The notes under the pieces were generated by a model, which saw only the letters and a program-made list of their open reading frames with translations, was not told the DNA's origin and ran no database searches. 20,795 nucleotides of DNA. Source: a virus. This document shows, piece after piece, positions 528 to 17,877 of this stretch (the stretch's first letter is position 1; every line of letters starts with the position of its first letter). Both the position numbers and the translations under genes were made by a program. The stretch lies in IMG/VR virus record IMGVR_UViG_3300037189_015223, positions 1 through 20,795 of that record; one strand, given 5' to 3'.

Positions 528-1588
528 TGTATATATCCGATTAATTCTAGTTTACAAATTGTGAAATTATTTTTAGTTACACTAAATGTTATTTCATCGT
601 TTGCATTTATGTTTATTGGTGTTGTGATTGTTAAACCACTAAATACTTGAATATTATTTACCTTAATAATAATATTTGTAATATTTTTAAAATTAGCGAT
701 TCCAGTAAAGGTTAAAGCATATGGTGCTGTAATAGAAAAATCTGGATTTGAAAGTTGTTTATAAATAATTGTATAATTTAATTTATTACTACCATCAATT
801 TTAGTTGTTAAATTAACAGCTTTAAGATTTCTATTAATTTGTTCATCATCTAACTCATAAGCTAAGAATAAACGATTTGCTGTAGGTACAATTTCAAAAT
901 CATCTTCGTCTAGTAAATACCCCATCAACCTCATTTCAAAATTTTGAACATAGAATCTTCTTTCTTCAAAATTTTCAATATTACTGTCATCACCAATATT
1001 CTCTAACAATACTGGCATTGGATGCCCCTTTACATCAATATAATATTGTCTAGATTGAAATGTTCGATGAATTTTTGAGTTAAATTTATTTAAGTCTTTC
1101 ATCCTACCAGTGAATATTCTCACCTCATATGTAATATCAACTGAAGTTGGCTGAGGAACCTTATATAAATCCACCCCCTTCCTAACACCATCCCAAGTTG
1201 GAACTTTCATGTAAGTATAGGTATAGTTGCCAGGGATATTAAATAACCCAGCTTGATTTTGACCAACTTGAATATCTGGCCTTCTAACCACTGTAACGAA
1301 TGGAATGGTAATATCCTTGTATTTATCTGTAAATTGCCAAGTTTTCGTAAATTCGGACCATCTTTGTATTGTTAAAAAAATAACTGGAACTTTATTTCCG
1401 TCAATGGTTAAACTTAATTCATCTTGAACAAAACTAATAAACCTTTCATCCATATCTTCTTCAGATACACCTCTAGGCAAAAAAGTTCCATTATCTTCAA
1501 TTCCATGAAGAATTTCTTCTCTTCTCTCATATCCAATTTTACTTGGATTTATGTTAATATTTGTCTTAAAATTTTTTGGAACTGCCAT
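524..1588 (-). CDS. Candidate tail-completion/sheath-stabiliser protein (T4 gp15-like)
   Basis: A 354-residue protein starting at ATG 1588, 2 nt after the stop of the upstream neck candidate; its stop overlaps the next ATG. Residues 1-250 carry a pattern I associate with T4 gp15, the protein that caps the tail: an early strand (VPVIFLTIQRWSEFTKTW), a middle region, then P-x-S-V-D-I-T-Y-E-V-R-I-F-T, a segment around FNSKIHRTF, and a strand ending FEMRLMGYLLDEDDFEI. T4 gp15 has a comparable order (P-x-x-I-x-Y-E-L-x-I-F-T, then a late beta strand), recalled from memory and not aligned. Residues 255-354 form an extra beta-rich tail that gp15 does not obviously have. The position next to a neck candidate supports a head-tail junction role. 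An unassigned virion protein is the main alternative. Confidence 0.5.
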   Translation of the reverse strand: MAVPKNFKTNININPSKIGYERREEILHGIEDNGTFLPRGVSEEDMDERFISFVQDELSLTIDGNKVPVIFLTIQRWSEFTKTWQFTDKYKDITIPFVTVVRRPDIQVGQNQAGLFNIPGNYTYTYMKVPTWDGVRKGVDLYKVPQPTSVDITYEVRIFTGRMKDLNKFNSKIHRTFQSRQYYIDVKGHPMPVLLENIGDDSNIENFEERRFYVQNFEMRLMGYLLDEDDFEIVPTANRLFLAYELDDEQINRNLKAVNLTTKIDGSNKLNYTIIYKQLSNPDFSITAPYALTFTGIANFKNITNIIIKVNNIQVFSGLTITTPININANDEITFSVTKNNFTICKLELIGYIQ

Positions 1589-1590
1589 AA

Positions 1591-2115
1591 TTAAACTCCT
1601 TTAAACTCTGATAACCCAGTTGGTACACAAGAAATTGTTCTAAACGCTCCCTTATATCCCATTATTGTATGCTTATTGTCCCAATTTTTCTTACCATCAT
1701 TAGTAACAGTGTAATATCTTGTAGTTGTTTCATCAACAACATATCCGATATAATCACCATAATTTATCTCTGTTTCTAGTTCTTTTAATTGGGCATCATA
1801 TATACCAAATTTTAATGGACCATCTTGTAAGAATCTAACTGTACCATTAGGATTATAAGTTTTATTCTCAGCCTCATCAAAAATTGGGATAACCTTTAAT
1901 TCAACTGGTGGAAAGTATCTTATTCCGTCTGCACTTGCTTCACCATAAACTGCATCAAATTCTGTTGAATCTCTATCAACACAATAAAGAATAATTGTAA
2001 AATTTCCGTCTCCTTCGATAGCTTCTCTTCCCATATTAATTTCTAATGAAAAATCTTCTTGAGAAAAAAACTTATTAATTCTTGTTACAGGGACTATCTT
2101 ATTATTACTATTCAT
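1591..2115 (-). CDS. Candidate neck/head-closure protein
   Basis: A 174-residue soluble protein. Its ATG (2115) lies 8 nt inside the end of the GIY-YIG endonuclease gene, so the two are probably read from one transcript. Features seen: an N-terminal acidic beta region, CVDRDSTEFDAVYGEA near residue 45, and a core INYGDYIGYVVDETTTRYYTV (about 117-137) followed by NDGKKNWDNKHTIMGYKG. A G-D-Y-I-G-Y strand followed by R-Y-Y-T-V recalls small beta-barrel head-closure (stopper) proteins, and T4 gp14 has a comparable G-D-L-I-Y-F-P segment. It is shorter than T4 gp14 (about 256 residues). Its neighbour is a gp15-like candidate, and a gp13-like candidate lies 3.5 kb away, which makes a neck module plausible. 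The function is inferred from pattern and context. Confidence 0.5.
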   Translation of the reverse strand: MNSNNKIVPVTRINKFFSQEDFSLEINMGREAIEGDGNFTIILYCVDRDSTEFDAVYGEASADGIRYFPPVELKVIPIFDEAENKTYNPNGTVRFLQDGPLKFGIYDAQLKELETEINYGDYIGYVVDETTTRYYTVTNDGKKNWDNKHTIMGYKGAFRTISCVPTGLSEFKGV

Positions 2116-2872
2116 TTTTTTTATATATAAATTTAAAATTATTAGTCGATTTTAACCTACCAGCTAAAACATTAGAAATACCCGAACTTCGAATACCTAA
2201 AGATTTAGCTGCTTCCGCAATACTTGGCCATTCTCTTAATATTATTCCGTCAGTCGTCAGCTGTATTATTTTTTTTTGTTTATTAATAAATGTACCTTCT
2301 TTATGCTTTTTACCAAAAAAACTATTTTTTACACCTAAATGCGATTCACTCATTTTTTTTTTAGTTTCAATTGATGGGACTTTACCTAATTTAGCTGAAC
2401 TGATTTTAGCTTTAGTTTCACTACTCATTTTTTTTCTATTAACTAATTTTTGTGATTCACTCATTTTTCGTCTAGTTTCATCGGATATTTTTTTTCCGAC
2501 ATGTGCATTACTTAAATTTTTTTTATGCTCCTCAGTAAATATGATACCCTTTCGACTATTACTCATTTGCTTTTTAGTTTTTTCTGACATTTTTCGATTT
2601 AATGTAGTCCCGTTACGACCACCAATTGAAATATTATACCCAGTTAATTTATTTGTTGAATCAAATTCTTTAATAAAAAATCGTTCATATTCATCTAAAT
2701 CTATTTGGTTATCACATATTATTAATATTTCTTTTTTAAAATTATCCTTTCCGTATTTTTCAATAGCCTTTTTAATTAAATCTCCAGACCCAATATATTT
2801 TGGATTATTATTTTTATCTTGGCCGATATAAATTTTTCCATTTACTAAATTTGTTGTTTTATAAATTACCAT
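2108..2872 (-). CDS. Free-standing GIY-YIG homing endonuclease with NUMOD3 repeats
   Basis: A 254-residue protein. The N-terminus VIYKTTNLVNGKIYIG contains the GIY-YIG nuclease signature (VIY at 2-4, YIG at 15-17), followed by YIGSGDLIKKAIEKYGKDNF and a glutamate-containing helix (LDEYERFFI) that fits the catalytic Glu position. Residues about 92-195 hold five NUMOD3-like DNA-binding units of the form (S/T)-x-E-(T/H)-(K/R)-(K/R)-K-(M/I/L)-S-x-(S/A). The C-terminal 50 residues (IIQLTTDGIILREWPSIAEA, then SLGIRSSGISNVLAGR) look like a NUMOD1/IENR1 helix-turn-helix unit. Such proteins cut intron-less or element-less alleles and copy themselves in. The gene sits directly upstream of, and overlaps, the neck candidate, so that gene or its flank is the likely target. 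No splice-like RNA structure was recognised around it. Confidence 0.9.
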   Translation of the reverse strand: MVIYKTTNLVNGKIYIGQDKNNNPKYIGSGDLIKKAIEKYGKDNFKKEILIICDNQIDLDEYERFFIKEFDSTNKLTGYNISIGGRNGTTLNRKMSEKTKKQMSNSRKGIIFTEEHKKNLSNAHVGKKISDETRRKMSESQKLVNRKKMSSETKAKISSAKLGKVPSIETKKKMSESHLGVKNSFFGKKHKEGTFINKQKKIIQLTTDGIILREWPSIAEAAKSLGIRSSGISNVLAGRLKSTNNFKFIYKKNE

Positions 2873-2905
2873 ATATTTCTTTCTATATAAATATATTAAC
2901 TTTTC

Positions 2906-2913
2906 TATTTATT
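2906..2913 (-). promoter_or_regulatory. Possible late-type promoter box AATAAATA before the GIY-YIG/neck genes
   Basis: Read on the minus strand, AATAAATA ends 33 nt before ATG 2872. It differs from the T4 late -10 box TATAAATA only at the first base. Its distance to the start codon matches that of similar boxes before other virion genes in this window. The flanking sequence is very AT-rich, so a chance match is possible. Confidence 0.3.
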
Positions 2914-3041
2914 TAAGTAATTGGTATTATTTCTTATCTATTCTATTAATTGGGATATTTCTTTGATTCATATATGAATTTAATTAATTTTATCTGTTAT
3001 TATTAATAAATATTTAATTAAACGTAATTATTGGTAAACAC

Positions 3042-3073
3042 TTGATTTTTTGTGAAAAAAATACTATATTGTG
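3042..3073 (+). promoter_or_regulatory. Possible Bacteroidota-type promoter for the helicase gene
   Basis: TTG at 3042-3044 is followed by exactly 20 nt and then TATATTGTG (3065-3073), a near match to the Bacteroidota -7 box TAnnTTTG. The spacer equals that of both promoters upstream of the DNA polymerase gene. The predicted start of transcription near 3080 would give a leader of roughly 25-30 nt before the TTG start codon at 3107. No ATAAATA-type late box lies within 50 nt of this gene. Confidence 0.4.
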
Positions 3074-3084
3074 CAAACACAATA
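3067..3084. repeat. Inverted repeat TATTGTG-CAAA-CACAATA over the helicase promoter
   Basis: Perfect 7-bp arms (3067-3073 and 3078-3084) flank a 4-bp centre. The left arm is part of the -7 box, and the right arm would cover the predicted start of transcription. That is the usual place for a repressor operator. There is no T-tract after it, so it is not a terminator. The regulator is unknown. Confidence 0.35.
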
Positions 3085-3106
3085 ATATTTAATAAAATTA
3101 AAAAAA

Positions 3107-4939
3107 TTGATAAATTTAGATGATATAAAGGGTAGAAGTGCGATTTCAATTTTGGAAAAGTATAATGGTATTAATCCATATATTAAAAAAATGCAAATCG
3201 AACTTAAAAAAAATGGAAAAATCAAATTAACTGAAGGTCAGACAAAATATATTGTTGATAATCATGAAACTGAACCGATTTTAGTTAATCGAGTTGTTAG
3301 TATTTCAAAATTTTTAGGTGACGAATTACAAAAACAAGAAAACCTTTCTTTTACACCTGAAAGAATCTTAGTTGAGTATATATTAGCCGATAACGATAAA
3401 GTATTTCATGTTTATGGTAAGTTAAAGAAAAATCAAGAAGTTTCTAAGATGTATTTTTTACCTAAGACACAAGTTCTTGATGACCCATATTATGAAGAAA
3501 TAAAGATAGATGTTAATTTTGATAAATATAGTAAGGATGGTTCCCAACTATATGAACATCAAAAAGAAGGTATTAAGTTCTTATTAACAAGAAATGGTTG
3601 TATATTAGCTGATGATATGGGATTAGGAAAAACAAGACAATCAATTATAGCGGCATTAGAAAGTGGTGCTAAGAATATACTTATTGTTTGCCCATCATCT
3701 GTTAAGATTAACTGGAAACGCGAAATTGAAGTCTTTTGTGATGATGTAACAATTGTAAGTGGTCGTAAATGGGACAGAGCTAAATTTACGATTATTAATT
3801 ATGATATACTTAAAAATTTTCACACTTTAGGTGATGGAAAAAAGAACGATGATTTTGACCCAGTAATTGAATATAATAGACACTTAGTAAATAGTAATTT
3901 TGACTTAATAATTGCCGATGAAGCACATGCATTGAAAAACAATAAGAGTATACGTGGAGAAATCATGTATGAATTATCAGTTAAATACGGTGTTGAACGT
4001 GTTTGGTTATTAACTGGTACACCAGTCGCAAATAGACCTATGGATTTTTATAATCTACTTAGATTAATAAAATCACCAATTGTTGACAATTGGCAATATT
4101 TTGTTACTAGATACTGTGATGCAAGGAAAATGTTTAGAACCTTAAAAAATGGTAAGAAAAAACAAATTTGGATTACCGATGGAGCATCAAATCTTGAAGA
4201 ACTTTCACAGAAGACTAAAAATCTTATTATTAGACGTTTAAAAACAGAAGTTCTAGATATGCCAGAAAAAATCATAAGCCCAATGTATTATGAATTAACT
4301 GATAATGAATGGGAAGAATATGATAAATTATGGGATGAATACCTTGAAAAAAGAAATGTTGAAAATAAAACGAGTTCAATACAACGAGATTTAGTTGAAT
4401 TAATATTGCTTCGAAAATTCATCGCAATGACAGCAATACAAAAAACAATTGAATTAGCTGAAACAGCACTTGAAAATGATGAAAAAGTAATTATATTTAC
4501 TAGCTTTACAGATGAGTTAAATGAATTAACAGAACACTTTGGTAAATCATGCGTAACACATAATGGACCAATGTCAGATAGAGAAAAACAAAAATCTGTT
4601 GATTCTTTTCAAACAAATCCTAAAAAGAAAGTATTTATCGGTAATATTAAATCGGCTGGCGTTGGTATTACATTAACTCAAGCAACAGTTGTAATATTTA
4701 ATTCATTTGATTGGGTACCAGGTATTAACGAACAAGCTGAAGATAGAGCCTATAGAATTGGGCAAAAGAATTGTGTAAATGTATACTACCAACTTTTTGA
4801 AAAAACAATTTCAACAAGAATGTGGGACGTATTAAGAAATAAAAAAGATATCATTTCAACCATTATGGGTGATACCAAGTTAACTGACAATGAAGTTCTT
4901 GAATTATTAATGGATAAATTTTTATTAGAAAATGGTTAG
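3107..4939 (+). CDS. SNF2-family DEAH helicase/translocase (SMARCAL1/UvsW-like role)
   Basis: A 610-residue ATP-dependent DNA translocase. Motif I is ADDMGLGKT (D169-T176) and motif II is DEAH (271-274); motif III (LLTGTPVANRP) follows. The C-terminal RecA lobe has EKVIIFTSFTDELNEL, SAGVGITLTQA and the SNF2 hallmark QAEDRAYRIGQ (543-553). In T4-like phages a helicase such as UvsW remodels forks and R-loops and helps the switch from origin- to recombination-driven replication. By domain type this protein is closer to SNF2/SMARCAL1, so the same role is inferred only. The start is TTG at 3107: the first in-frame ATG (3191) would remove GRSAISILEKYNGINPYIKK, which looks like a genuine conserved N-terminus. 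The gene overlaps the glutaredoxin gene by 8 nt. Confidence 0.92.
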   Translation: MINLDDIKGRSAISILEKYNGINPYIKKMQIELKKNGKIKLTEGQTKYIVDNHETEPILVNRVVSISKFLGDELQKQENLSFTPERILVEYILADNDKVFHVYGKLKKNQEVSKMYFLPKTQVLDDPYYEEIKIDVNFDKYSKDGSQLYEHQKEGIKFLLTRNGCILADDMGLGKTRQSIIAALESGAKNILIVCPSSVKINWKREIEVFCDDVTIVSGRKWDRAKFTIINYDILKNFHTLGDGKKNDDFDPVIEYNRHLVNSNFDLIIADEAHALKNNKSIRGEIMYELSVKYGVERVWLLTGTPVANRPMDFYNLLRLIKSPIVDNWQYFVTRYCDARKMFRTLKNGKKKQIWITDGASNLEELSQKTKNLIIRRLKTEVLDMPEKIISPMYYELTDNEWEEYDKLWDEYLEKRNVENKTSSIQRDLVELILLRKFIAMTAIQKTIELAETALENDEKVIIFTSFTDELNELTEHFGKSCVTHNGPMSDREKQKSVDSFQTNPKKKVFIGNIKSAGVGITLTQATVVIFNSFDWVPGINEQAEDRAYRIGQKNCVNVYYQLFEKTISTRMWDVLRNKKDIISTIMGDTKLTDNEVLELLMDKFLLENG

Positions 4940-6851: not shown

Positions 6852-6878
6852 AAATGGGGCTTTCGCCCCATTTTTTAT
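6852..6878. terminator. Hairpin terminator between convergent neck and polymerase genes
   Basis: A 9-bp perfect stem, AAATGGGGC (6852-6860) and GCCCCATTT (6865-6873), closes a 4-nt loop and runs into a T-tract at 6871-6876. It terminates the plus-strand neck gene. On the minus strand the same stem has the stable GNRA-type loop GAAA just after the polymerase stop codon, followed by ATTTATATT, so it may also stop polymerase transcripts. Confidence 0.9.
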
Positions 6879-9800
6879 TAGAAATTCCATTCATCCTCTT
6901 CTTCCTCAACTGGCTTAGTTTCGATTATTAATTCCTCATTTTCTTCTTCAGCATCTATGATGTCAAACACTGGTTTTATATTATCGACCTCAACTAAAAA
7001 TTCAAATTTTTGAATATTATTACTAAAGTCATCAATTGTTTGGTGTTGAACGTCGTCATCATCCTCATCTTCAGTATTAACAACTAGTTTTTTTTGTTTC
7101 CTTTTTGGTAATAATTTTTTAGTGTTTATATCAGCTTCTTTTACCACTTCTTCAATTCCATCGGCACTTTGAACTATAAAGTCTAAAGTTTTACCAGAAT
7201 AAAATTCTAAATTGTTCTTATAATCAATCCATCTTTCATATCTATCATCTGCTTTATTTTGTGTTAACTCATACCAGCTATTCCTTTCAAAGATTTCATT
7301 TTCATACTTTAATATGTCCGTAATATCAGCTAATTTACCACCCCATTTAATTGATACAATCGAATTATTATCAAAATCAAAATCACCGATAGAATATATC
7401 TCATGTGGAATTTCGTCACCATTTTTTATTCTTACTAATTCATCGTATTCAAACTTCTTAAAGATATTATCTAATAACACTTTCTCGTGTTTAATACCAT
7501 CAATTCTTTCAATTTCTTTTTTCTCAAAATAATTAACCTTAACTTCCTCCCATTTATCGATATCAATATCATTAGGGGTTTTATTTACACTAACCCAAAA
7601 CTTAATTTCTTTGTCTTCCATTGTCATTAGTTCCTCATATGTATCTTGGTCACCTTCTTTATTTGGTATACCAAAAACCAATTCACATTCAGATTCAGTG
7701 AAAAATTTTCTATCTTTCAATTTCTCTAACTTAGTTTTTTTATCTTTTATAATAGATAACAAAACATCTTCTCTTATTACTGAATTAAAACACACTAACA
7801 ATGGTTTAACCTTCTTATTAAACGCTTCTAAGTATTTTGCAACGTTATACGTGGTTGTATCCAACTCAGATTCAATCTTAGCTATTGTGTTATTTAACAC
7901 ATTAATTTTTTCTTCATCAGTTTCAGTTAATAATATTTTTTGTAATGATTCGATTTCTTTAAGTAACTCAAGATTAGACTCAACAATATTCGAATCAATT
8001 AATTCACAATTAATTTGTAATTCAGTTTCAAAATTTGGTTGGAAACCATTATTAATTTCATAATCTAAGATTTCTTTTTTTGTCATCTTACTTCTAATCA
8101 AAGTTTTTATATCACCAGTTCCTTTACTAGAACCTGTGTTTACATAATAAATCGTATCACCTAAGTTGACATCTAAATTATTTATTATCGCTAATTCCAT
8201 ATGTGCTTGTCTTGGCATTGGATTACCAGCCTTATTCTTAGTCTTAGCTTTTTTCTTATAATCAGAAACATTTGATTTAACCTTAGATTTAGAAGCAATT
8301 TTAACTACTGGAATACTGTAATTATAGATTAAATCAACATAATCGTAATAATAATTTATAAATTCATAACCCTTACCATTTAATAACATCTTAATAGCCT
8401 TTTGTAAGAATTCCTCAATATAAACTGGCATTTTTTTAGATTTAATCGAGTTTCCAACTAATTTAATCTTACTATCTAATAAATTCGCGTAATTTTTTCT
8501 AGCAAAATTAATCGTAGACTCATATATATCATCAATATCTAATCCCATTCTACCAATCATAAAACCCTCATTAAATTCTGCCAATACAGCATCAAGTCCA
8601 CTCAATTCCTTTCCAGCATATTCAGTTGTTTTCCAGTGATTACCCTTTGCAATATATTTTACATTATCAATATCATCTGGGAATGCAAAGTTGAAGCCAT
8701 CGGTGTTATGAGCTATAATACCATTTATTCCACAAATAAAAGTACCGTCCTCTGTTGATACATCATAAACAAAATTATTTTTATCTTTATTTATTATTAT
8801 TTCATTTTTCCAAATTTCATTTGTTTTCTTTTTTGTTTTTTCAGTAAACGATGAGTTATTTCTATTATTGTTTTTTAAAATAAAAGTGACAAAATTCTCT
8901 TTATCTTTCCTTGTTTTTATTTTATATTCGATTCCAAGTTCTTTAAGTAATAAACCAATACCACTCATAGCTATTTGTGATTTCATACCAATCTCAGAAC
9001 ATTCTAATATTGTATCTCCATAACCATCAGAAGCAAAAACCCCTTCAATAAATGATTTTTTTATTTTGATATCAGCATTTAAAATAGTTTTAGGAACTTT
9101 TTTTTCTCTATAAGATGTGTAAAAAATATCACAAAAAGTATTTGAAAACACTGAATTATGGACAACTAGATTATGAACACCACTTGATTTTAAATGGTTT
9201 TTAATCAACCCTTCAACACCAAAACTATCCTTTAGAATTGTTTTTAATTTCTCTAAATGGGTTAATTTGGTGTTTGATATTTTCCAATTACTTCTTTTAG
9301 ATAGATATGTCTTAATTTCACCAGTTTTTTTAGATGTGTAATTAACTTTTCTTTTTGAATTCATAGATGAACCATCACCTAAGAAAAAACCATATAAAAA
9401 TGCTTCATCTTCTGTTAAAAATATTTGTTTATTGGTATTAAAAGGAACCTCATAAGTATCAATTAAATCACCTTGGATTAAAGATGATGGTTTAACCTCA
9501 ACACCGTTTTGGAATAATGAATGGTCCTCAGTAACGTTAATCATCCTATCTTTTGTTGTTATTCTATGAATTTTCTTATCGGTTCCATGTCTATAAACGT
9601 ACTTTATATTTTTCCAACCACCTCTAGTTAATATTTCATAAGGTTTCTCTTCATAATCTCTTAATTTTTCATTATCTAAATAAATAGAATTTTCGTTAAA
9701 TAAATCACAAATAGGTTGAATGTCTATAGTGTTATTCTTTTTATTCCTCAAATATACTGGTGTATCGTATGTGACAGAATCGCCAACTAATGGTTGAAAA

Positions 9801-11623
9801 TTATATTTTTCATGGAAGTGTTTAACCATAAGTCTTAAGTATTGTCTACCACGACAAGTTGTTTCTTCAGCACAGTCAGATGCACCCCAATTAAAGATAT
9901 ATGGAGCACCATAAGCACCAAACCAAGAGTTTGCTAATATTTTTAATGGTAATTGTTTTTTATCGTAAAGATTGGCTAACGCCTTGTTTTCTTTTATTTG
10001 TGCCTTTAACTCTTCAATTTTTTCTGGAGAATAATCATTATTATCTAACTCTTCTTGAATATTTTTAGCTATCTTCTTGTGCTTACCTGTTAAAAATTTA
10101 AACGTATCACGAGTATCAACAACATAAGTAAGTAACCCTTCCATTACACCACTAATGTCTAAGTCTGGAAAGATTTTGTTTGTTAATTGATTCTTTGGGT
10201 ATAACGCTGCATAGTCAAATTTAACAACATTCTTCGCAAACCCAACTTTAAGCAACCTTGAAAGTCCACCAGTAAAATCACGCTTAGGTTCTGTTTCTGG
10301 TATGGCTAAATTGTTTTCATATGACCAAGCGGCCATGATTAGTTTCCACTGACTAGCAGTACCCATGGTTGAACTTCTACTATAAGTAGTTGGTAATAAC
10401 TTAGCAATTAAGAATGCAGCTTGATTAAATATTGTATCTACTTGTTCTGTTTCCCATAAATCATCCAATAAGTATCTTTGTACAATAAACGCGCCAGTCT
10501 TTATTTCATAATCATCTTTTAATGGCATTTTTTCAGAAATCTTGTACCAATCACCATTTTTATTATTAAATGCGTATTGATTAACTGTATCTGACCATGT
10601 ACTATGAATTTTATCACCTGACACGTAAACACGATTTTCTTTATTTAATTCTGAATATTTTGTTATGTATTTTAGACCCCAACTCTTAATGTCAGAGTTA
10701 ATCGCTTGTGCCCTTCTAACTGAGTGAGCAATATCAATAATATTATAACCATACATATACGTTTGTTCGTATGGTTCCATTTCATTACCTAATTTTAAAA
10801 TTGATGGTTTTCGTTTTAACGAAGTAGTTCCATCAAGACCCTTAGCAATCTGAGTAATATCTAAGTCTAATCGTTGACATCTTTGTACTATGAAATTCCA
10901 ATCAAATGATTCTGAGTTATAACCAGTAATAGTATCTGGTTGTATCATAGAAATTCTTTTAAAGAATTCTTTAATATTATCACGTTCGCTTTCCCTACGT
11001 TCCTTAGGCGTATCACCAATAGTTTCAAGAACAAACTCAAAACCACGATTATCACGCATACCAATTTGAAACATACCGTCTTTAGATGGTAATAATCCTT
11101 CGGTTTCTAAGTCAAATTGAAATCTATGAAGGTCGTTATAATCCTCCATACCCTTAAACATACGAATTCCAGTTTGAATCATAAACTGTTCAACTGGTGT
11201 GAAAGCAAAAAATAATTTTGAAAAACTTTTATTGAATATATCGACACCACCAGCTTTAAAATATTGTACTAAATCATTGTAAGATTTTTCTGAAGTTGCA
11301 ATAAATTTATAGCCATTTTCCAAACGCTTAGGTACGTTTCCATTAACATCGCTTATCTTTAAGCGTTTACTCTTAACACCATACTTTTGGGCTTCAGTAA
11401 TTGCCTTTAATTTACTACCATTGTAAAGCAATTTTGAAACATCCTCTTTAAACCAAATAAATGGTTTATATGGATGTTTTTCAATCCTCTTCCCTGTTTG
11501 TGGGTCGTTAATAATAAGGTTAACAAACTTATCGGTATAATTAGCCTCGATACCAACAACGTATTGTTTTGGGTTATTTCCATTTAGGAAATTTTCAATT
11601 GTTTTACTGTCTACATTAATCAT
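6878..11623 (-). CDS. Family-B DNA polymerase (T4 gp43-like) interrupted by an intein
   Basis: A 1581-residue precursor and replicative DNA polymerase with a 3'-5' exonuclease. Exo I is DLETEG (D171, E173), Exo II is GYNSESFD (N236, D241) and Exo III fits Y384-x3-D388. Polymerase motif A is KFDYAALYP (D470), and motif B is KILANSWFG (561-569). Motif C is split: PLVGD stops at D615, a 358-residue intein follows, then TDGFNF resumes at T974, giving GDTDG after splicing. The spliced product would be 1223 residues, longer than T4 gp43 (898). The C-terminus is very acidic, with HQTIDDF as a weak clamp-binding-like motif and a final EEEEDEWNF. The start is ATG 11623: an in-frame GTG at 11653 lies inside the promoter -7 box and would not be transcribed. 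Two tandem host-like promoters lie upstream. Confidence 0.95.
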   Translation of the reverse strand: MINVDSKTIENFLNGNNPKQYVVGIEANYTDKFVNLIINDPQTGKRIEKHPYKPFIWFKEDVSKLLYNGSKLKAITEAQKYGVKSKRLKISDVNGNVPKRLENGYKFIATSEKSYNDLVQYFKAGGVDIFNKSFSKLFFAFTPVEQFMIQTGIRMFKGMEDYNDLHRFQFDLETEGLLPSKDGMFQIGMRDNRGFEFVLETIGDTPKERRESERDNIKEFFKRISMIQPDTITGYNSESFDWNFIVQRCQRLDLDITQIAKGLDGTTSLKRKPSILKLGNEMEPYEQTYMYGYNIIDIAHSVRRAQAINSDIKSWGLKYITKYSELNKENRVYVSGDKIHSTWSDTVNQYAFNNKNGDWYKISEKMPLKDDYEIKTGAFIVQRYLLDDLWETEQVDTIFNQAAFLIAKLLPTTYSRSSTMGTASQWKLIMAAWSYENNLAIPETEPKRDFTGGLSRLLKVGFAKNVVKFDYAALYPKNQLTNKIFPDLDISGVMEGLLTYVVDTRDTFKFLTGKHKKIAKNIQEELDNNDYSPEKIEELKAQIKENKALANLYDKKQLPLKILANSWFGAYGAPYIFNWGASDCAEETTCRGRQYLRLMVKHFHEKYNFQPLVGDSVTYDTPVYLRNKKNNTIDIQPICDLFNENSIYLDNEKLRDYEEKPYEILTRGGWKNIKYVYRHGTDKKIHRITTKDRMINVTEDHSLFQNGVEVKPSSLIQGDLIDTYEVPFNTNKQIFLTEDEAFLYGFFLGDGSSMNSKRKVNYTSKKTGEIKTYLSKRSNWKISNTKLTHLEKLKTILKDSFGVEGLIKNHLKSSGVHNLVVHNSVFSNTFCDIFYTSYREKKVPKTILNADIKIKKSFIEGVFASDGYGDTILECSEIGMKSQIAMSGIGLLLKELGIEYKIKTRKDKENFVTFILKNNNRNNSSFTEKTKKKTNEIWKNEIIINKDKNNFVYDVSTEDGTFICGINGIIAHNTDGFNFAFPDDIDNVKYIAKGNHWKTTEYAGKELSGLDAVLAEFNEGFMIGRMGLDIDDIYESTINFARKNYANLLDSKIKLVGNSIKSKKMPVYIEEFLQKAIKMLLNGKGYEFINYYYDYVDLIYNYSIPVVKIASKSKVKSNVSDYKKKAKTKNKAGNPMPRQAHMELAIINNLDVNLGDTIYYVNTGSSKGTGDIKTLIRSKMTKKEILDYEINNGFQPNFETELQINCELIDSNIVESNLELLKEIESLQKILLTETDEEKINVLNNTIAKIESELDTTTYNVAKYLEAFNKKVKPLLVCFNSVIREDVLLSIIKDKKTKLEKLKDRKFFTESECELVFGIPNKEGDQDTYEELMTMEDKEIKFWVSVNKTPNDIDIDKWEEVKVNYFEKKEIERIDGIKHEKVLLDNIFKKFEYDELVRIKNGDEIPHEIYSIGDFDFDNNSIVSIKWGGKLADITDILKYENEIFERNSWYELTQNKADDRYERWIDYKNNLEFYSGKTLDFIVQSADGIEEVVKEADINTKKLLPKRKQKKLVVNTEDEDDDDVQHQTIDDFSNNIQKFEFLVEVDNIKPVFDIIDAEEENEELIIETKPVEEEEDEWNF
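8705..9778 (-). mobile_element. Intein with LAGLIDADG homing endonuclease in polymerase motif C
   Basis: In-frame insertion of 358 residues, from Ser1 (codon at 9778-9776; SVTYDTPVYL) to Asn358 (codon 8707-8705; GIIAHN), followed by Thr as the +1 residue. Splicing block B is VTEDHS (T83-x2-H86), and the C-terminal blocks are FVYDVSTEDGTFICG and INGIIAHN, with the penultimate His. The endonuclease has both LAGLIDADG helices, LYGFFLGDG (128-136) and FIEGVFASDG (243-252), each with its acidic residue, so it appears active. It is inserted between GD and TDG of motif C, a known insertion site in family-B polymerases. The polymerase cannot be active until the intein is removed. The junction uses Ser and Thr nucleophiles, not Cys. 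Confidence 0.95.
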
Positions 11624-11642
11624 TTCTGTGAATATATTTTTA

Positions 11643-11673
11643 CAAATATACACACACTTTAATCAAAAAACAA
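11643..11673 (-). promoter_or_regulatory. Proximal DNA polymerase promoter, Bacteroidota type
   Basis: On the minus strand: TTG (11673-11671), a 20-nt spacer, then TATATTTG (11650-11643), a perfect TAnnTTTG box. The ATG follows 19 nt after the box, giving a leader of only about 12-15 nt. This arrangement rules out the GTG at 11653 as the start. Confidence 0.65.
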
Positions 11674-13548: not shown

Positions 13549-14676
13549 TTAAGTTGTGTTTATTATTAAATATCCGACAGAATCGGTATCGCCATTCGCA
13601 GACGAAATTATTGTAAAAGAACCATTAGTTTTTGTTAAAATTGATGCAGTTCCAGCACTATAAACAGCTGTTTGTTTAGTTAATAAGATTAAACTAGTTG
13701 TTTTTACTAGTGAATTATTAACAACAACCGTTGACGGATTACCACCTGTTAAGATAACAACATCAGTTGTTTTATTTGTACCAGAAGTTAGAGTTAAGTC
13801 ACCATTTAATCTTGTTGTTCCAGATACATTAAGCTTGAAACCGCTATCAACTGTTGTACCAATTAATGTATTACCACTTGTTGTTCCAAATAAATTATTA
13901 CCTGTAACCGTTTCAATTGCAATGTGGTTTGTGTTTGTTAAAGATGATAATACTGGATTATAATAAATACCTCTTATAATTGCTGTACCTGTTGTACCTG
14001 TATTATTATAAGTTGGATTTATATGAAGTATATTAGCAACAGGACTTGCTTGTTGTTGAGCAACTGTTACAGCAATACGAAATGCATTTTGTGTAATTCC
14101 AGCCGCACCTAAAAGTGAACCTTGAACAGTCATTAACATCGCATCACCAGCACTACCTACTCTATTGATTGTTTCAAGAGTTCCAACATTGGTTAAATAA
14201 TTTTGACCAAGACTGACTTGTCCAGCATTTAAGAAAATTCTATTACTTGGTCCAAAAGTAATATTTTCACCAGCTGGACCTCCCGTTATTACTTGCGTGT
14301 TAATTGCTGTTTTTGCAATAGTTAAATTTGTACCAGTAAAAGATGAATTTTGAACGTTTATAGTACCATTAACTGTTAAACCAGTCATTGTATTAAATAA
14401 TACATTAAAAGATGTTCCAGAATTATTATTAAATGTAAATGTATTATTTGAATAAGTTGCTCCAGTTGTATATGTATTAATACTACTTAAATCTACTAAT
14501 AGGTTATCCCCTGAATATCTCTCTAATGATAATATGTTTCCGTTTAATGACAAATTAGTTGAATCCAATCCCTTTAATGTAATGAAATTAGTATCAAGCT
14601 CTGTTTGACTTAAAACACTACCTTTATTTGTATCACCATAAGGGCTATTTGTTGCTCTTAATATTAAATCTGGCAT
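13549..14676 (-). CDS. Tail-fibre-like protein
   Basis: A 375-residue Thr/Asn/Ser/Gly-rich protein. The N-terminus (LILRATNSPYGDTNKGSVLS, then QTELDTNFITLKG) looks like a fibre-anchoring segment repeated at the start of many phage fibres. A beta-repeat, TGATYSNNTFTFNNNSGTSF (71-90), matches a segment of the fibre-like protein at 1-527. A late segment, GFKLNVSGTTRLNGDLTL, recalls fibre shaft repeats of Bacteroidota phages. No enzymatic motif and no chaperone domain were seen. It is likely a virion appendage involved in host contact. The preceding gap of 42 nt to the next gene holds a weak late-type box (14709-14716). Confidence 0.75.
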   Translation of the reverse strand: MPDLILRATNSPYGDTNKGSVLSQTELDTNFITLKGLDSTNLSLNGNILSLERYSGDNLLVDLSSINTYTTGATYSNNTFTFNNNSGTSFNVLFNTMTGLTVNGTINVQNSSFTGTNLTIAKTAINTQVITGGPAGENITFGPSNRIFLNAGQVSLGQNYLTNVGTLETINRVGSAGDAMLMTVQGSLLGAAGITQNAFRIAVTVAQQQASPVANILHINPTYNNTGTTGTAIIRGIYYNPVLSSLTNTNHIAIETVTGNNLFGTTSGNTLIGTTVDSGFKLNVSGTTRLNGDLTLTSGTNKTTDVVILTGGNPSTVVVNNSLVKTTSLILLTKQTAVYSAGTASILTKTNGSFTIISSANGDTDSVGYLIINTT

Positions 14677-16452: not shown

Positions 16453-16503
16453 TTATCAATAAGTTGTTGGTTAAATTTGTACGGTTGATACCATAATATT
16501 TTA

Positions 16504-16557
16504 TTAAAATCCTGAAAGCGCTGCTCTTTTCCATGTATTTGTGGCAACACAAACATA
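16504..16557 (-). pseudogene. Remnant of a tail-gene 3' end, fused to the HNH gene
   Basis: This 54-nt stretch (17 codons plus TAA) aligns without gaps to the end of the tail gene at 17197-17250. About 36 of 54 bases are identical, including the first 12 (TATGTTTGTGTT). It probably marks the insertion boundary of the endonuclease gene. Confidence 0.7.
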
Positions 16558-17193
16558 ATTTTCGAAAAACTTTTTATGTGAATAATTATTTCTACCACAT
16601 ATTTTATGTATTTCGTTATGACAATTTTTACATAATAAAATAATGTTAGATTCGTCAAATCGTAACAATGGAAACTCTTTCCAAGACTTTATATGATGCA
16701 TATGTTCACCAATATCACCACAAATTCTACATTTATTATTATCCCTTTTATGGATTTCTTTTTTTAAAATCTTATATTCAATCCAATTTCGTTTTGTTTG
16801 AATTCCTCTATTTTCTAAACCTTTATACCTAAAATGATTTTCACCCTTAGCATTATTCATACATATTTTAGAACAATATTTTTTACGTCTATATGGTTTA
16901 TCTGAAAACTCTTTATTACACACACAGCATTTGTGAGTAACATTACCACAACCCTTATTTTTACTTACCCTACCAACATTGACTTTTTTTAAAAACTCAA
17001 GTTGTTCAATTGTTTTTATTTTATTTTTTGGGTTACTTCTACCTTTATTAAATGTGTTACCAATTAACTCTAACCCATATTTATAAAACCAGTTTCTTAC
17101 CGTTCTATCCGTTATTGAATATAATTCAGCTATTTTAATTGAAGATAATTTTTGATTATAATGTAAATCGTATAATATTTCTTTAGTTATCAT
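16504..17193 (-). CDS. HNH homing endonuclease with tail-gene C-terminus fused in frame
   Basis: A 229-residue protein. Residues 1-45 form a helix-turn-helix (SSIKIAELYSITDRTVRNWF). Residues 89-111 form a zinc finger of the type C-x2-C-x14-C-x3-C (C89, C92, C107, C111). The HNH nuclease has C155-x2-C158, H166/H167, N183, C188-x2-C191 and H192/H196. The last 17 residues (YVCVATNTWKRAALSGF, 213-229) are unrelated to HNH enzymes but match the C-terminus of the neighbouring tail protein (YVCVSNNVWKRASLSSF) at 12 of 17 positions. The gene starts 3 nt after that tail gene. It thus seems to be a mobile gene inserted at the 3' end of a tail gene and now fused to the leftover end. Confidence 0.9.
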   Translation of the reverse strand: MITKEILYDLHYNQKLSSIKIAELYSITDRTVRNWFYKYGLELIGNTFNKGRSNPKNKIKTIEQLEFLKKVNVGRVSKNKGCGNVTHKCCVCNKEFSDKPYRRKKYCSKICMNNAKGENHFRYKGLENRGIQTKRNWIEYKILKKEIHKRDNNKCRICGDIGEHMHHIKSWKEFPLLRFDESNIILLCKNCHNEIHKICGRNNYSHKKFFENYVCVATNTWKRAALSGF

Positions 17194-17196
17194 ATA

Positions 17197-17877
17197 TTAA
17201 AATGAAGATAATGAAGCTCGCTTCCAAACATTATTACTAACACAAACATATATGTAACCATTTGTTATTTTAATTTGACCCTCAGTTCCAGTCGCACCAG
17301 ACGATGCTGGGGCTGTATTCATTCCAGATAATTGTAGATTATCCGCTAAGAGTGTATTAGTTCTTGTTATACCAGAAACATCAACCCATATTGTACGACC
17401 AGTAAAATCCAACGTACCAGCACTATAAAAATTTATTGTCTCACTATATGATGTTCCAGTGTAATTACCACCACCAAGACTTGCCATAGCAATAGGTACT
17501 ATATCAAAACTAACACCTGTATAGGTTAAGTTAACTGTATTTCCATCAATAATTGTTGTAGTTGCAGATGTAAGAACTAGTCCAGTATTTTGTGTTATAC
17601 CACTATTTGAAGGGGTTATTGCCGATAATGTGCTATTGGCAACTTGCATCCCAGAATTATACCAAGTATAAACGGTTGTACCAGAATTTCCTGAAAACGT
17701 ACTTAAGTTACCACCATCATATGTAGTTGTTATAGCTGTTGTTGTTAAATCTGGCCCAGTTGCTAATGCACTAAACGGAACACCAAAAACTGTGGCACCA
17801 GATAAATGTGTGCTTGTTTCTGGGTATTGCTTTACTTGTCTATTTGTTGAAAAGTCTAATTTTGTAATAAAATTCAT
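17197..17877 (-). CDS. Tail-fibre-like protein ahead of the HNH gene
   Basis: A 226-residue protein rich in Thr, Ser and Gly. The N-terminus MNFITKLDFSTNRQVKQYPE, followed by a segment containing LSGATVFGVPF, looks like an attachment region. The middle is beta-rich repeats. The C-terminus GTEGQIKITNGYIYVCVSNN, then VWKRASLSSF, is a terminal module that I associate with fibre proteins of such phages (G-Q-I-x-x-x-x-x-Y-I-Y-V-C-x-x-x-x-x-W-K-R-A). It is the first gene of a minus-strand run of virion genes and has a late-type box 39 nt upstream. Its 3' end is directly followed by the HNH endonuclease, which carries a diverged copy of the last 17 codons. Confidence 0.75.
   Translation of the reverse strand: MNFITKLDFSTNRQVKQYPETSTHLSGATVFGVPFSALATGPDLTTTAITTTYDGGNLSTFSGNSGTTVYTWYNSGMQVANSTLSAITPSNSGITQNTGLVLTSATTTIIDGNTVNLTYTGVSFDIVPIAMASLGGGNYTGTSYSETINFYSAGTLDFTGRTIWVDVSGITRTNTLLADNLQLSGMNTAPASSGATGTEGQIKITNGYIYVCVSNNVWKRASLSSF

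Follow-up and report, generated by a model that had tools for sequence, protein, structure and literature searches.

Homing elements usually spare the gene that they enter, either through splicing or through placement between genes. A third way, in which the host gene is given a new end, has been described for yeast nuclei and for fungal mitochondria; no phage description was found, and the open literature yielded no precedent for a C-terminus-replacing element in a phage tail gene (subscription journals were mostly outside the coverage). Here we analyze a viral DNA stretch of 20,795 nucleotides (IMG/VR record IMGVR_UViG_3300037189_015223, positions 1 to 20,795; the whole stretch is referred to as the window), in which a tail gene is followed directly by an HNH endonuclease gene and the two proteins end in similar residues. 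The sequences make it very probable that this is a homing element, consisting of the HNH endonuclease gene and a short substitute 3' end for the targeted gene, which inserted within the YVCV codons of a C-terminal module of the tail protein.

In mechanism, the nearest known counterparts are the WHO elements of Torulaspora and Lachancea yeasts (Coughlan et al. 2020, PMC7282813). Their endonuclease gene lies directly 3' of its target, and homing swaps the 3' end of FBA1 for a divergent, resistant version; the old end is pushed behind the endonuclease gene and may then decay there. The window resembles these elements in all three respects: the endonuclease gene is directly 3' of the target, the target's end is replaced, and the old end is displaced behind the endonuclease gene. 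WHO proteins, however, combine an intein-like endonuclease with zinc fingers, target mainly the housekeeping gene FBA1 and leave fragments of ~400 bp, whereas the window encodes a helix-turn-helix (HTH)-HNH enzyme, ~42 bp are replaced, and the target is a module of unrelated tail genes. The window element works like a WHO element but is not a member of that family, as its protein does not have the intein-like endonuclease domain and zinc finger that define it.

Fungal mitochondria contain mobile open reading frames (mORFs) with foreign C-termini, in Allomyces atp6 and in Glomus atp6, atp9, cox2 and nad3 (Beaudet et al. 2013, PMC3630166). Compared with element-free relatives, their displaced native ends are 91-98% identical and their inserted ends 64-81% (PMC3630166). 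The window bears the same signature, its displaced end being 89% and its inserted end 65% identical to the element-free relative L003. Unlike the window, with its HNH enzyme and phage tail gene, mORFs encode LAGLIDADG or GIY-YIG enzymes, reside in organelles and replace much longer ends. In T4-type phages, mobA/gene 60 and mobE/nrdA are cases of HNH-type homing genes inserted within an essential gene (PMC2988022); those insertions split the gene into two polypeptides, whereas the tail gene of the window stays whole by means of the supplied end.

Both genes are on the minus strand, the tail gene running from 17877 to 17197 and the HNH gene from 17193 to 16504, so that the HNH start lies 3 bp past the tail stop. 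The tail/structural protein (226 aa) matches PHROG 17312, 'tail protein', at its C-terminus, and the HNH protein (229 aa, fused tail end included) has a Pfam HNH match of 6e-7 and is homologous over 206-220 aa to HNH proteins of three other IMG/VR contigs, L032, L122 and L125. The HNH protein ends in YVCVATNTWKRAALSGF and the upstream tail protein in YVCVSNNVWKRASLSSF. The corresponding terminal stretches (16504-16557 and 17197-17250, both minus strand, both reaching the stop) have 12 of 17 residues and 36 of 54 nt (67%) in common, the first 12 nt (TATGTTTGTGTT) being identical; the genes, their positions, this degree of similarity and the coinciding ends are as described in the original prediction. 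The shared ends are not due to chance, because 12 matches were never reached (maximum 7) when 17-residue stretches were drawn at random 200,000 times according to the composition of each protein. Of all 17-mer pairings of the two proteins, the terminal one also matches best, and a contig search with the tail protein recovers the HNH end as well (E = 0.0027). The tail open reading frame (ORF) is complete and terminates at its own stop codon ahead of the HNH start; splicing is therefore not needed, and the locus is not organized as a self-splicing intron or intein, although no dedicated intron scan was run.

To determine which of the two ends is native, as the original prediction had proposed, the window was compared with an element-free relative. 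L003 (near-identical to L004 and L005, all contigs from a single phage) has the neighboring genes in the same order and a tail protein with 77% identity to the window's over its whole length. At this place L003 has just one tail gene, which contains one module and ends in YVCVATNTWKRATLSGF, and no HNH gene, so that the HNH gene is a presence/absence polymorphism at one site. The end in L003 matches the HNH-fused copy at 48 of 54 nt and 16 of 17 residues, and the present end of the tail gene at 35 of 54 nt. Of the distal 39 nt, 33 match in the HNH-fused copy and 20 (51%) in the present tail end, against a background identity to L003 of ~78% along the tail gene (P = 2e-4 for a foreign end). At the 15 sites where the two copies differ in their agreement with L003, the HNH-fused copy agrees at 14 and the tail copy at one.

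The nucleotide alignments place the switch at the 12-bp sequence. The blastn alignment of the tail gene with L003 reaches this sequence (17239..17250, minus strand, encoding YVCV) and then ends (24 bp, 87.5%), leaving it as the last native bases of the tail gene. The alignment of the HNH end begins at the second, identical copy (16546..16557, minus strand) and continues through the displaced native end (16504..16545, minus strand; ATNTWKRAALSGF and stop), which is read as the HNH C-terminus, across the stop codon and into TAAAAT..TTATGG (67 bp, 88%), the original 3' flank of the tail gene at 16488..16503 (minus strand). Because the matches to L003 switch in this mosaic manner at the 12-bp sequence, the alignments show that the tail gene was formerly contiguous, that its last 13 codons and 3' flank now lie behind the HNH gene, with the codons fused to it, and that the tail gene is now chimeric, a native body followed by a foreign piece (17197..17238, minus strand; SNNVWKRASLSSF and stop). 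This end is complete and keeps the invariant module residues Y, C and W, which, together with the 51% versus 78% identity, points to a foreign but presumably functional replacement. The original prediction was thus supported in its idea of an insertion that supplied its own C-terminus, but the emphasis of its statement that the HNH gene carries a copy of the tail end needs correcting: matching ends are present, and it is the HNH gene that holds the original and the tail gene that holds the replacement. The two outcomes that it had named as refuting were not encountered, the module of L003 belonging to the same tail gene and the HNH homologues examined lacking this C-terminus. Beside this site, between the HNH stop and the gene that follows, lie 50 bp (16453-16503) that resemble the start of an extra gene kept by L003, most of which the window seems to have lost.

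The same comparison bears on the second possibility raised in the original prediction, that a second tail gene with the same terminal module once stood here and was largely overwritten by an HNH element. Module-bearing tail genes can adjoin each other, as in the natural tandem of L088 (3710-4702), where two similar tail genes stand in a row and the first, at least, has the module at its end. However, L003 has one tail gene and one module in that same gene, its end and 3' flank match the HNH-fused copy while the upstream part of the very same gene matches the window's tail gene, and two more phages are split at the same codons. An overwritten second gene is not needed to explain the locus, and we regard it as very unlikely.

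Equally improbable is that a free-standing HNH gene landed 3' of an intact tail gene, the 17 residues being its own C-terminus or an accidental recombination scar. HNH genes often stand free between phage genes (PMC2988022). None of 10 homologues, however, carries these residues, neither the three closest relatives nor the seven other phage proteins, most of which end where the three closest relatives end; the tail's present end is foreign with respect to L003, and the fused end sits in its native flank. The homologues stop a few residues further on, and the frame of the window's gene runs into the leftover end. Because the HNH and tail genes are codirectional in the window, the HNH gene reads through into the leftover and so gained 17 tail residues, which are a by-product of orientation.

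The HNH protein itself combines a catalytic domain with a DNA-binding region, as expected of an HNH homing endonuclease. The catalytic domain with its Cys pairs (PF01844, residues 155-197) is encoded at 16603..16731 (minus strand), and the N-terminal HTH region, presumed to recognize DNA, at 17077..17163 (minus strand). Pfam HNH is above cut-off in all four HNH proteins, whereas HTH_23 is above cut-off in L032 and weaker in the other three (E 0.04 in the window, where helices are seen in the AlphaFold2 (AF2) model). The phage HNH families PHROG 1271 and 8446 are related in sequence to the window's protein; the phage HNH homologues examined, which were not checked for membership in them, adjoin unrelated genes (helicase, tape measure, SprT and others) and lack the tail module. 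In a tree without three long-branch outgroups, the four proteins form one clade (support 99/96).

The module that received the element spans ~50 residues at the C-terminus of the tail protein (17197..17346, minus strand; consensus ...TGTxGxIRxDAxYIYVCVATNTWKRAALxTW). It is present in >500 IMG/VR stretches and also in tail proteins of cyanophages, Klebsiella phages, Mycobacterium phages and Sphingomonas phage PAU. Positions Y44, C46 and W52 of the 60-residue module alignment are invariant among 62 sequences, and the AF2 model built from these sequences (mean predicted local distance difference test score, pLDDT, 90.7) has three terminal beta-strands. The junction falls within the second of these, and in the model an insertion there without a replacement end would cost the module its final hairpin. 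Comparison of the module sequence with solved structures gave no match, and Foldseek searches with the module and HNH models returned no significant matches; those of the module lean to chitinases at E >= 0.28 and were not used. Nearly 30 phages (L006-L031, L033) share the first ~180 residues of this protein, and most of them have a long repeat region and a chaperone-like end with a related GWKR.xLE.F motif rather than the short module.

The arrangement in the window is not unique. L032, L122 and L125 carry full-length relatives of the HNH protein (34-37% identity), each at the 3' end of a tail gene, and in the comparisons made the four tail genes are unrelated outside the module of ~50 residues that they share at their C-termini. 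L032 came from scanning module matches for a second distal copy, whereas L122 and L125 came from profile and motif searches. Among 101 module ends examined, only those with an HNH gene had a second distal module copy within 2.5 kb downstream, and a motif scan for the HNH subfamily across all of IMG/VR, excluding the window's own record as in all these scans, returned exactly these three contigs. Single-protein searches of IMG/VR with the window's HNH protein or the downstream structural gene found nothing, a two-sequence HNH profile and a motif pattern being needed; among GTDB genomes there was no member matching the patterns.

The GC-rich, unrelated contig L032 carries a pectate-lyase-like tailspike gene (1448-4069) that ends in ICVSNNVWKKAAISTW. 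Its HNH gene (4766-4056; 34% over 206 aa to the window's protein, E 1e-39) is on the opposite strand to the tailspike gene, and the leftover, HICTATNTWKKVAIATW, lies beyond it at 4764-4817, followed by the next gene. The new end has a GC content of 36%, compared to 56% in the tail gene and 52% in the leftover. The convergent layout recurs in L125, where a decayed leftover ('*VAPNVWKF') lies just past the HNH gene and abuts the next gene, and L122 is likewise convergent, the contig ending inside the HNH gene so that the other side is cut off. The insertion codons are the same in the window, L032 and L125, in all of which the native 3' end is displaced behind the endonuclease gene as in WHO elements and mORFs; in L122 the element is at the same gene end. 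In the three convergent cases the last codons of the HNH gene overlap those of the tail gene by ~14-26 bp on the opposite strand, and the replacement end therefore physically belongs to the HNH gene. As judged from these alignments, a single HNH clade is found at the same position in three unrelated tail genes, with both sides readable in two, and the arrangement holds for at least three, probably four, unrelated phage tail genes. Recurrence of the arrangement in independent contigs, which come from different samples, led us to reject an assembly artefact as its cause.

The replacement ends differ from other modules in one short segment. Four positions immediately before the invariant W read ATNT in 52 of 66 distinct modules, and in 52 of the 62 that have no HNH gene behind them. 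This core is missing from all four HNH-bearing ends (SNNV in both the window and L032, ASNT and QTNV in the others) compared to 10 of the 62 others (Fisher P = 0.0014), while both leftovers that have not decayed (n=2) read ATNT. Outside the window, the codon pattern of CVSNNVWK was found in a single IMG/VR contig, L032, again beside the related HNH gene. Nine of the non-ATNT modules were checked for other nucleases or scars behind them, and none was seen. The simplest reading would be that the cleavage site has the ATNT codons at its core and that the element carries a version that escapes cutting. Alternatively, the element may be real but now immobile, its recoded end reflecting drift after an old insertion rather than a protected allele; leftovers do decay, as in L125, and relaxed constraint might lead to recoding. 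We consider this unlikely, since in four of four cases it is the working copy rather than the spare that departs from consensus, SNNV is common to the window and L032 in a codon pattern seen nowhere else in IMG/VR, and the new end of L032 has a foreign base composition.

Cleavage and mobility of the element are what we infer from these patterns. In a mixed infection, the HNH enzyme would cut or nick an element-free module near TGYGTN-GCNACNAAYACN-TGGAAR, and the element-bearing genome would serve as the repair template, pairing on one side with the sequence that leads up to the cut and on the other through the leftover end. Repair would copy in the HNH gene together with the recoded end, whose altered core (SNNV or similar in place of ATNT) would prevent recutting of the restored module, and the displaced native end would be left to decay. 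Several observations weigh against the reading of these loci as homing elements. One independent element-free relative of the window's tail gene was found, and none for L032, L122 or L125; L122 is readable on one side only, and the leftover of L125 is short and decayed. When the long-branch outgroups are included, the tree does not resolve the four HNH proteins as one group, and the ATNT count draws partly on loci that were picked by the module search itself. The structure of the element is also not constant: the two genes point the same way in the window but converge in L032, L122 and L125, which means either inversion or separate assembly of the element.

The four loci look like a small element family living off one shared tail-tip module. 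It appears somewhat probable that a dedicated phage HNH lineage uses this portable module as its homing site, each homing event rewriting the tail-tip end with a cut-proof version. If so, shuffling of the module between unrelated tail fibers and tailspikes would let one endonuclease lineage invade different genes in distant phages, and a target exchanged among phages would explain how one element lineage reached unrelated genes. A selfish gene could in this way rewrite the extreme end of a tail protein, where phages introduce variation for contact with their hosts.

Other genes of the window have related features. A GIY-YIG and NUMOD3 endonuclease gene (2108-2872, minus strand), whose end overlaps the start of a structural gene (1591-2115, minus strand) by 8 bp, is a second free-standing homing-type gene adjoining a structural gene. 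A family-B DNA polymerase gene (6878-11653, minus strand) contains a LAGLIDADG domain in an apparent intein, so that with the HNH gene three homing-endonuclease classes are present within 20.8 kb. The gene at 13549-14676 (minus strand) encodes a tail protein with a terminal K1-lyase_C domain (PF24146), another portable C-terminal module.
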